A stretch of DNA of 64,000 bases from an uncultured Thalassolituus sp. (GTDB lineage: Bacteria; Pseudomonadota; Gammaproteobacteria; Pseudomonadales; Oceanobacteraceae): NCBI RefSeq assembly GCF_950066645.1, contig NZ_CATMFB010000010.1, positions 1-64,000 of the forward strand, read 5' to 3'. This document shows, piece after piece, positions 55,448-58,447 of this stretch. Every line of letters starts with the position of its first letter. Positions within the stretch are counted from its first letter, which is position 1. The translations under genes were made by a program, and so were the position numbers. The notes under the pieces are model-generated. The model did not search any database, was not told the origin of the DNA, and saw only the letters and a list, made by a program, of their open reading frames with translations.

Positions 55448-55521
55448 GGACTGCGGGTACTCTTTAAAAATCACGCGTATTGTCTGGAAATACGCTCCTG
55501 GACGCAAACCGGAAACACAGG

Positions 55522-57039
55522 ATGCAACTCTCTCCAACTTCCAAAGCCGGCAGTGGCAACCGCCTTCTGCGTCTCTACGGATACTACTCTCTGTTTCTCG
55601 CCCTGCTGATCATCGTCGTCGACAGCATTGATAAGCAGGACAGACTACTCGGTGAACGCGCACCTCAGCTCTTCCTGATACTGTCGTCTGTGTACGTTAT
55701 CAGCGCTGCGACCTTTGTCGCTATCGCTAACCGGCGGCCGGATTCTCAGGCCACCACCAGCTATATGTTCATCGAAACTGCGCTTCTGACCGGCATGATG
55801 TACGCATCGGGAGGGCTGGCAGCAGGCTTCTCCAGCCTGTTGCTGATCCCGGTGATTATGGCGAACCTGCTCGCGCCCGGAGTATTGGGCTACGGCGTAG
55901 CCGCCTGGCTCAGTCTGGCGGTGTTTTATACGCAGCATATTCTGCATGGGGAATTCGGGTTGTCTGATACCGCCAATACCGGGGTGTATGGAGCGATCAC
56001 CTTCGCTATCGCGACCATTACCCAGCTATTGTCACGTCGTATCCGCACCGCAATCGACCTTGCGCAGGATCAGGCGTATAACGCGCGTCGCCTGCAACGA
56101 CTCAGTCAACAGGCGCTGATGACACTGCCCGACGGTATCATTGCCTGTACCCGCTACCAGCAGATCCTGTTTTTCAACCAGCAGGCGGCAGACTGGTTTC
56201 CTCTGCGAGCGGGAGAAAAACTTCCCCCTGCGCTTGAACATATCTTCCGTTCAGAAAAGTTATCAGGCGCACAGCCGCTGACGGTGTCCCGTATCTCCAT
56301 TCCTGATACCGACGGCGATTTTCTTCTGGTGATTGAAGACGACACCCGGGTAGCGGCTGAGGCCCAGCAGATCAAACTGGCGTCACTCGGGCGCCTGACC
56401 GCCAGTATTGCTCACGAGATCCGTAACCCGCTGTCAGCACTGCAACAGGCTTCGCAACTTCTGAGCGAAACACCCGGCCTGAGCCCGGAAAACCAACGTC
56501 TCACACGAATGATTGAAGACAACAGTCAGCGAATTAACCGTACCATTGCCGATATTCTGCAACTGTCCCGGGGGCGACAGGCGAGATGTGAACCGCTTGA
56601 GCTGGCGGCGTTTCTTGATCGTTTTAAGCGTCAGTTTCTGGAGTTGCATCCGCAGAACGATTTCGATCTTGTCATCCACAGTGAGGATTCGCCCCAGGTC
56701 AGGTTTGATGCTGACCATCTTGTCCAGGTACTTAACAACCTTTGCAACAACGGCCTGCGATACGCACGCAGACTTCATACGGATAAACCCCAACTGACCC
56801 TGACGGTGATGCGTGGCGATCATTCCCACACTATCCTTGATGTCAGCGACAATGGCGGGGGTGTTTGCCCTGAACAGCAGGAGCGTCTGTTCGAGCCATT
56901 CCACACAACGGAACCAGAAGGGACTGGTCTGGGTCTGTATCTCTGCCGGGAGCTGTGTCAGGCCAATGAAGCAGACATCAGCTACGCCGGACATCCGGGA
57001 GGCGCTCTCTTTCGTATACGGATGAAAGATGCAGAATAA
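55522..57039 (+). CDS. pilS: Type IV pilus sensor histidine kinase PilS
   Basis: The 505-aa protein has six N-terminal TM helices (about 15-190), a PAS-like domain (about 205-285), the H-box LGRLTASIAHEIRNPLSALQQA, and the HATPase domain with N-box NNLCNNGLRYA and GTGLGLYL. It controls pilA with PilR in Pseudomonas. The start chosen is the ATG (MQLSPTSKAG); a TTG 42 bp upstream is possible. The catalytic motifs look intact, unlike those of its partner regulator. Confidence 0.9.
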   Translation: MQLSPTSKAGSGNRLLRLYGYYSLFLALLIIVVDSIDKQDRLLGERAPQLFLILSSVYVISAATFVAIANRRPDSQATTSYMFIETALLTGMMYASGGLAAGFSSLLLIPVIMANLLAPGVLGYGVAAWLSLAVFYTQHILHGEFGLSDTANTGVYGAITFAIATITQLLSRRIRTAIDLAQDQAYNARRLQRLSQQALMTLPDGIIACTRYQQILFFNQQAADWFPLRAGEKLPPALEHIFRSEKLSGAQPLTVSRISIPDTDGDFLLVIEDDTRVAAEAQQIKLASLGRLTASIAHEIRNPLSALQQASQLLSETPGLSPENQRLTRMIEDNSQRINRTIADILQLSRGRQARCEPLELAAFLDRFKRQFLELHPQNDFDLVIHSEDSPQVRFDADHLVQVLNNLCNNGLRYARRLHTDKPQLTLTVMRGDHSHTILDVSDNGGGVCPEQQERLFEPFHTTEPEGTGLGLYLCRELCQANEADISYAGHPGGALFRIRMKDAE

Positions 57040-57133: not shown

Positions 57134-58447
57134 ATGGCACCGGAATTATCAGCCCTGATCGTCGATGATGAAGCAGACATCCGCGAGCTGGTAACAATGA
57201 CGCTGGAGCGCATGGGGCTTAAATGTACGGGTGCTGCCAATGTCCGGGAGGCCATGGAGGCACTTGAAGACACCACCTTCCATTTCTGCATCACCGATAT
57301 GAAAATGCCCGACGGCGATGGAATACAGCTGATACATCATTGTGCACGGCAGTATCCCGATATGCCCCTGGCGATGATTACCGCCTTCGGGAATATGGAA
57401 ACCGGTGTCGCGGCACTGAAAGCCGGCGCTTTCGATGTGGTCGCGAAGCCCATCGACACCAACCGCCTGCGCGACCTGGCAACGGCAGCTCTGCGGCTAT
57501 CCCGGGTTCCGGGAGTATTGCCGCCACAGTGTCTGAATATCCTCAGTGGAGGTTCAGCCACAATGAGCCGGTTACGCGCTGACCTCCACAAAATTGCACG
57601 GACACAGGCACCCGTGGTCATCAGAGGACCGGCGGGTTCTGGCAAAGAAGACTTCGCACAGGCCATTCATCTTCTCGGGAGTCGCCACGACGCTCCCTTT
57701 ATATTTATCAACTGCGCTTCTGTGGGCGTCGATGAAATCGAGCAGGAAATTTTTGGCAGTAACAGCCACACCGGGGCGGTGACCGAAGCCAATGGTGGCA
57801 CTCTGTTTATCAACGCGATTGAGCACCTCAACCATGACCTGCAGGGGCGTATACTGCGCCTGATTCAGGAGCGACGTTTCCGCCGCCCCGGCTATCTGAG
57901 CGATGATGACTCCGATGTCCGGATCATCACAGGCACCACGGCTGACCCTGAAACTCTGGTCGCCAACGGATCATTAAGACAGGACCTGTATTATCGCCTG
58001 AACGTGGTCAACCTCGCGGTACCTGCTCTCGCGAATCGCCCGGAAGACCTTCCGACCATAGTACAGTCCTACCTTCATACCTATGCGCTGGCCTGGGATA
58101 TGCCTGACGTTTCTATGTCCTCTGAGGCACTGGCTCTGCTGACGTCACACCCCTTTCCGGGCAACGTCCGTGAACTTGAAAACGTGCTGCAGCGCGCCTT
58201 CACCATGATGGAGGGCGAGGTGATTCAGGCATCCGATCTGCAATTGACGTCCATGCCGCCCACCGCACCTGACCTTCCTCCTGGCGGCACGGTAACTGAC
58301 CTGGAAGGCTACCTGGAACGCCTTGAACGTCAGGCCATCGAAGGAGCGCTTCAGGCCACCCGCTGGAACAAAACTGCAGCAGCCGAAAAGCTGGGGATCA
58401 GCTTCAGGGCTCTGAGATACAGATGTAAGAAATTAGGCATAGATTAA
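57134..58447 (+). CDS. pilR: PilR-type response regulator with degenerate AAA+ domain
   Basis: The 437-aa protein has an intact receiver (Asp11-Asp12, phospho-acceptor Asp55, Lys106). The AAA+ domain (about 137-360) has Walker A GPAGSGKE (165-172), Arg-finger region RQDLYYRLN (282-290) and FPGNVRELENVLQRA. The FIS-type HTH is at 409-437 (WNKTAAAEKLGISFRALRYRCKKLG). The sigma-54 contact loop is lost: residues 207-220 read FGSNSHTGAVTEAN in place of FGH..GAFTGA.., with a deletion. The Walker B acidic pair is Asn227-Ala228. Pairing with pilS and the minor pilin genes supports PilR, but sigma-54 activation is doubtful. Confidence 0.85.
   Translation: MAPELSALIVDDEADIRELVTMTLERMGLKCTGAANVREAMEALEDTTFHFCITDMKMPDGDGIQLIHHCARQYPDMPLAMITAFGNMETGVAALKAGAFDVVAKPIDTNRLRDLATAALRLSRVPGVLPPQCLNILSGGSATMSRLRADLHKIARTQAPVVIRGPAGSGKEDFAQAIHLLGSRHDAPFIFINCASVGVDEIEQEIFGSNSHTGAVTEANGGTLFINAIEHLNHDLQGRILRLIQERRFRRPGYLSDDDSDVRIITGTTADPETLVANGSLRQDLYYRLNVVNLAVPALANRPEDLPTIVQSYLHTYALAWDMPDVSMSSEALALLTSHPFPGNVRELENVLQRAFTMMEGEVIQASDLQLTSMPPTAPDLPPGGTVTDLEGYLERLERQAIEGALQATRWNKTAAAEKLGISFRALRYRCKKLGID

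Follow-up and report, generated by a model that had tools for sequence, protein, structure and literature searches.

We consider it likely that the PilR encoded in the window (the whole 64-kb stretch of DNA that was analysed, from an uncultured Thalassolituus sp.) has stayed intact as a regulator under selection, has lost its coupling to sigma-54 and acts at the pilin gene pilA without it, probably with the sigma-70 polymerase. Regulator and target promoter seem to have been rewired, not broken. Judged from the genomes compared, the pilA promoter changes together with the state of PilR, a point new with respect to the preliminary description of this DNA, and the PilR loop and the pilA −12 element appear to have been lost jointly in about five lineages. 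The features of the locus are as follows.

55480..57039, + strand: pilS, partner histidine kinase (PilS 6TM, HisKA and HATPase domains)
57134..58447, + strand: pilR, 437 aa, NtrC-type response regulator without the GAFTGA loop and the Walker B acids
57149..57484, + strand: receiver domain, residues 6-117, phospho-acceptor D55; D11, D12, T83 and K105 kept
57626..57649, + strand: Walker A GPAGSGKE, residues 165-172, kept
57752..57793, + strand: loop 1 with GAFTGA deleted, FGSNSHTGAVTEAN, residues 207-220
57794..57823, + strand: degenerate Walker B GGTLFINAIE, residues 221-230
57977..58000, + strand: arginine fingers RQDLYYRL, residues 282-289, kept
58160..58177, + strand: sensor II GNVREL, residues 343-348, kept
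58310..58444, + strand: Fis-type HTH, residues 393-437, mean 84% identity to 14 intact family PilRs

The pilS gene, with its 6TM PilS domain, lies directly 5′ of pilR, and the ORFs on the 3′ side resemble what we take to be fimT, pilV, pilW, pilX and pilY1. Pfam detected Sigma54_activat, Response_reg, AAA lid and Fis HTH domains above cut-off, and a tree built without the loop columns placed the protein within the PilRs of the family (support for the 32-row family group, 100/100). Aligned with the GSFTGA-bearing PilR of the congener G006, the loop 1 stretch was 9 residues shorter and the Walker B acids, LDE in G006, were replaced by N227 and A228. Walker A (G165, G168, G170 and K171), both arginine fingers (R282 and R288) and sensor II (R346) were present. 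The preliminary description had reported a shortened loop and GGTLFINAIE at residues 207-230 (57752-57823), with receiver, arginine finger and HTH preserved; the ORF, the alignment, the receiver residues and the Pfam domains bore this out, coordinates included. Having kept Walker A and the arginine fingers and lost Walker B, the window PilR fits the pattern of an AAA+ protein that would bind ATP and not hydrolyse it. The GAFTGA loop, the Walker B acids and a −24/−12 site at pilA, the criteria for a sigma-54 activator (bEBP), were all absent, and the receiver-AAA+-HTH layout without the loop is that of the GAFTGA-less NtrC-type regulators of sigma-70 genes. A structural model (mean pLDDT 87.3) placed the AAA+ domain close to FlrC (target TM 0.89), while its whole-chain PDB matches, which include NtrX, NtrC1, LuxO and VpsR (7v2b), reached a TM near 0.5 with the domains differently placed.

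The loss was shared by relatives. A close PilR was found in 7 of the 9 genomes of the genus, and six of these seven proteins lacked both the loop and the Walker B acids, which G006 had retained; the deletions spanned 4, 7 or 9 residues. Through identical PilRs, the proteins without the loop include those of Thalassolituus maritimus DSM 24913 (the same protein as in G003) and of an Oleibacter marinus MAG, and the loop-bearing ones include that of Bacterioplanes sanyensis KCTC 32220 (the same as in G014). In an alignment of 94 distinct relatives, the window PilR included, 82 matched the GAFTGA pattern and 12 failed it; one of the twelve (L135) carries GSYTGA and was not scored as a loss, leaving 11 loop-less proteins. 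These are the six of the genus, L021 (G015), L027 (G011), L055 (G054) and two from Microbulbifer (L127 and L130). The Walker B acids were also lost in eight of them (the six of the genus, G015 and G011), and both D and E were retained in L055 and the two Microbulbifer proteins. In L055 the GSFTGA-type loop is replaced by GGMIPD at unchanged length with Walker B intact; this is probably the youngest loss, and no compensated frameshift was evident behind it in a comparison made by eye. Within the family, matches were obtained in 39 of 44 genomes, and the 33 that were read comprised 9 loop-less and 24 loop-bearing PilRs. A search of 38 genomes around M. elongatus gave matches in 34, and the 30 read comprised 8 loop-less and 22 loop-bearing proteins. 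Two of these loop-less relatives, L300 (G087) and L293 (G069), read FFDNV and YFDDV at Walker B, which is apparently changing there too. With five further genomes of the genus in the same state, the loop-less PilR is neither a product of chance nor an error of sequencing or assembly.

In order to compare the promoters, the pilin gene near pilB was taken in the 9 loop-less and in 12 of the 24 loop-bearing genomes of the family, and in G007; at the pilB step G004 gave no match, and G051, which matched part of PilB, was left out. The 400 bp upstream of the pilin gene were scanned for GG-N10-GC and scored against a sigma-54 consensus. A near-consensus −24/−12 site preceded pilA in 12 of 12 loop-bearing genomes and in none of the 9 loop-less ones. 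The former scored 0.94 (for example, TGGCACACTCTTCGCA), while no site in the latter exceeded 0.84; G016 and G020 carry two pilin genes each, and in both the 0.94 site precedes the first. When the nine loop-less promoters were aligned, all nine had retained the −24 TTGGCA and none had kept the −12 GC at the correct distance. The promoter of the window genome, TTGGCAAACTGCCCTCA, shows this state, and in G015 the GC is present one base too far away. Outside the family, where 11 genomes were searched and a twelfth locus (L095) was left out, a pilin gene with a leader motif was found in eight and none in G062, G063 and G065. There, the −24/−12 site preceded pilA in 4 of 6 loop-bearing genomes (score 0.92-0.94) and in neither of the two loop-less ones, both from Microbulbifer, in which the −24 was lost as well as the −12. 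The other two loop-bearing genomes, G061 and G066, one a Dasania and one a Spongiibacteraceae MAG, kept TTGGCA and had GA or GT at −12; their pilA promoters (L231 in G061, L236 in G066) read TTGA and TTGT there, against TTGC.

Counted strictly, the site was thus present in 16 of 18 loop-bearing genomes and in 0 of 11 loop-less genomes, an association whose Fisher p values ignore kinship. Four independent pairs could be drawn on starred branches: with the −13 G alone as criterion all four were concordant, and under strict coding of the −12 GC 3.7 agreed on average and none was discordant. With four pairs the sign test comes to 0.125, and a value of 0.05 is out of its reach. The tree of PilR (56 rows, loop and Walker B columns removed) needed five changes, at least four of them on starred branches; taken alone, it did not reject a single origin of the three groups without Walker B acids (p-AU 0.143). 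The pilB tree needed four changes within the family, only one of which was forced by starred branches alone, and it rejected one clade of loop-less genomes (p-AU 0.0023 with 8 rows, 0.0007 with the 9 of the family). The loop-less relatives of M. elongatus formed, with L130, one clade (100/99) nested among loop-bearing ones. From these trees we put the losses at about five: some four took place within the family, and one close to Microbulbifer. The genomes can be arranged as a series from intact (G006), through loss of the loop only (G054, Microbulbifer) and loss of loop and Walker B (the window genome), to a genome in which no PilS or PilR was found (G007). Going by G054 and Microbulbifer, we infer that the loop and the −12 element were lost earlier than Walker B.

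Upstream of pilA, a 17-bp dyad, [GC]TGAC-N7-GTCA[CGT], was found in all 29 genomes with PilR that were examined (11 loop-less, 18 loop-bearing). Its pattern was written after the sequences had been seen, and it matched shuffled 350-bp upstream regions at a rate of 0.0012. Its co-conservation makes the dyad a candidate PilR site. No copy occurs within the 64-kb window. G007, a genome of the same genus, has pilB and a pilin gene in an assembly that is 95% complete, and no PilR or PilS was found in it. Upstream of its pilA (L198) neither the dyad nor the −12 element is left, and G007 is likely the end point of the series. In G004 (80% complete) neither PilR nor PilS was matched, yet the dyad and an intact −24/−12 site are present, so that in the assemblies examined the dyad can occur where no PilR is matched; we assume that its PilR is probably unsampled in the assembly. 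The distance from the dyad to TTGG was 107-110 bp in the 9 loop-less genomes of the family (108 in seven) versus 80-135 bp in 12 loop-bearing ones, a difference in variance (Levene p 0.005) that is not corrected for kinship. The spacing is suggestive only, since four nearby loop-bearing genomes also lie at 109-110 bp; a rigid spacing would suit contact with a sigma-70 polymerase better than looping. A search for an IHF site between dyad and promoter was uninformative in loop-less and loop-bearing genomes alike. A second inverted repeat, GTCAT..ATGAC, was seen by eye just 3′ of the old −12, close to where pilA transcription likely begins, in seven of the nine loop-less genomes of the family (L180 to L189), and it also occurs in the loop-bearing G006, G017 and G056.

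The loop-less proteins have been kept under selection. Among three close ones dN/dS was 0.022-0.027 (dS 1.3-1.6) and the HTH was identical, while seven loop-bearing pairs gave 0.023-0.094. In the eight PilRs without Walker B acids, mean identity to the loop-bearing PilRs of the family fell most in the AAA+ core (0.41-0.51 versus 0.77 among loop-bearing proteins) and less in the receiver (0.61-0.71 versus 0.74) and the HTH (0.80-0.93 versus 0.92). All 11 loop-less PilRs retained D11, D12, D55, T83 and K105 together with the Walker A glycines and lysine, and PilS was found in 14 of the 16 genomes searched, that of the window included. R282 was kept in 11, R288 in 10 and the sensor II R346 in 9 of the 11; G011 lacks R288 and sensor II and G015 lacks sensor II, so nucleotide use may differ in these two. 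Residue 230 (57821-57823) is A, G or S in 82 loop-bearing PilRs and D or E in all eight proteins without Walker B acids, which belong to three lineages, a change that reads as convergent.

Sigma-54 itself has not been given up. All nine genomes of the genus, to which this search was confined, contain rpoN, and loss of RpoN was on this ground rejected as the cause there. Region I and the RpoN box were present in the eight sequences read, five of them from genomes with a loop-less PilR. Five other activators with GAFTGA-like loops are encoded in the window genome, and sigma-54 sites remain before what we read as glnA (G000 and G003), fliL (G000) and flgB (G015). Across whole genomes, a strict sigma-54 pattern gave hits in only 5 of 15. 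A looser pattern gave, against a reversed control, 12 versus 5 hits in G011, 6 versus 0 in G015 and 6 versus 6 in both G000 and G003; as it did not exceed the control in these last two, only ten single sites were read.

In all nine loop-less pilA promoters of the family the retained bases extend past the −24 (TTGGCAnACT), and a TTGC or TTGT lies 19 bp before TTGG and 17 bp from the CAnACT behind TG. This element was also present in eight loop-bearing genomes of the family and, as read from the promoter alignment, not in G013, G016, G018 and G020; together with CAnACT it may represent a latent promoter of the extended −10 type. In a matrix scan, the best sigma-70 match of each loop-less promoter showed no gain over shuffles (shuffle fraction 0.10-0.75). 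The earlier suggestion of a phospho-dependent DNA-binding regulator of sigma-70 genes, comparable to Rhodobacter NtrC, therefore stands in part: working free of sigma-54 is supported, because the pilA −12 is lost, the dyad, the phospho-relay residues, Walker A and the HTH are kept and dN/dS is low, while sigma-70 stays a proposed partner, whose promoter matches did not beat shuffles. In the scheme that we propose, PilS would phosphorylate the loop-less PilR, whose receiver residues are kept, and PilR would still bind the dyad upstream of pilA. Its oligomeric state may be governed by ATP that is bound but not hydrolysed, given the kept Walker A and arginine fingers and the lost Walker B. Sigma-54 polymerase would no longer be remodelled, as both the loop and the pilA −12 are gone from the sequences, and pilA would be read by another form of polymerase, most likely the sigma-70 one. 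Transcription would then start from a weak promoter that overlaps the former −24, and PilR, bound about 108 bp upstream, would activate or modulate it. This change would have taken place about five times, loop and −12 going first and Walker B probably later.

Other explanations were weighed against this scheme. PilR could now repress or block a pilA promoter that is constitutive, with the GTCAT..ATGAC repeat near the start as a possible site. Caulobacter NtrC, which lacks GAFTGA, represses some sigma-70 promoters according to the available passages of PMC10274813, and the repeat stands just 3′ of the old −12 in most loop-less genomes of the family. The repeat also occurs in three loop-bearing genomes, however, and so does not follow the loss, and all 11 loop-less genomes conserve the far dyad; we regard repression as unlikely. 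A natural sigma-54 bypass, in which RpoN polymerase sits on the kept −24 and opens the promoter without an AAA+ activator once the −12 GC is lost, PilR being a modulator, appears rather unlikely. The kept TTGGCA and the missing −12 GC in the nine promoters of the family agree with it, and so does an E. coli study which, in the excerpts available, reports that bypass increases when the −12 GC is changed and that promoters showing it have no strict −12 C (PMC4551910). That study, however, used sigma-54 without region I and describes bypass as rare in vivo (PMC4551910, same excerpts), whereas the RpoN of the five loop-less genomes read does have region I; moreover, the two Microbulbifer genomes have lost the −24 too, and the bases kept in the family reach past the −24 and include the TTGC 19 bp upstream. 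We find it quite improbable, likewise, that the loop-less genomes of the family carry natural sigma-54 promoters active with no AAA+ activator at all, the −12 lock having gone with the PilR loop and the −24 having stayed, and that PilR now tunes such an unlocked promoter like any common DNA-binding protein. Decay of PilR into a pseudogene after pilA had turned constitutive, for which G007 with its missing PilR, PilS, dyad and −12 could speak, is very unlikely in view of the low dN/dS and identical HTH of the three close loop-less PilRs at that depth of divergence and of the absence of stops inside PilR among the matches listed. An error of sequencing or assembly that hides GAFTGA, or the dominant-negative role beside a second PilR that was once proposed for this protein, is scarcely credible: six genomes of the genus are loop-less, the window genome holds a single PilR match at E <= 1e-75 and no second canonical pilR at that threshold, its next-best matches being 32-36% identical among the matches listed, and the dominant-negative role is further unsupported because no −24/−12 site is left at pilA to activate.

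We thus favour the reading of a selected PilR uncoupled from sigma-54. It bears on how a two-part sigma-54 circuit changes its sigma factor and yet keeps its regulator: RpoN, in the genus, and the upstream dyad stay while the loop and the −12 vanish, and closely related species differ in the state of PilR and promoter. Among the open-licence papers listed, no title, abstract opening or available passage reported a loop-less PilR, and the passages available of an Acinetobacter pilus paper name sigma-70 only as a loading control (PMC8088505). A survey of 2025 calls GAFTGA invariant in sigma-54 activators and uses it as a filter, according to the part available (PMC12316311), so that loop-less PilRs would escape such a survey. 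Single cases of NtrC-type regulators lacking GAFTGA are already known. As a practical warning, annotation as PilR does not imply that pili are under the control of RpoN.

The canonical PilR of Pseudomonas aeruginosa shares with the window PilR the PilS partner and the receiver-AAA+-Fis layout; unlike it, the Pseudomonas protein retains GAFTGA and drives pilA with RpoN. A closer likeness is NtrC of Rhodobacter capsulatus, an NtrC-type regulator with a loop deletion, for which the passages available report activation with sigma-70 that requires phosphorylation and ATP binding, not hydrolysis (PMC10274813). The window protein differs in being a PilR, and the comparison is confined to the loop and the reported mode of activation. 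In Caulobacter, the same passages describe an NtrC with an eight-residue deletion over the GAFTGA loop that acts at sigma-70 promoters, while another activator still uses sigma-54 (PMC10274813). That NtrC requires its Walker A and Walker B residues for growth on ammonium (PMC10274813, same passages), whereas the window PilR has lost Walker B. VpsR of Vibrio cholerae, whose structure (7v2b) is among the matches of our model, is an NtrC-type protein without GAFTGA at sigma-70 promoters and is said there to require neither phosphorylation nor ATP (PMC10274813). For the pilin gene, the likeness is with Neisseria pilE, which in the excerpts available is transcribed by RpoN with Nps/Npa in commensals and by RpoD in pathogens, where rpoN is broken and, in N. 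meningitidis, Npa is truncated (PMC6528607, PMC6755734). There the main pilin gene has left sigma-54 and its PilSR-like pair for the housekeeping sigma factor, much as we propose that pilA has left sigma-54. Unlike in Neisseria, rpoN is whole in the genus of the window, and PilR has been kept under selection without its loop.
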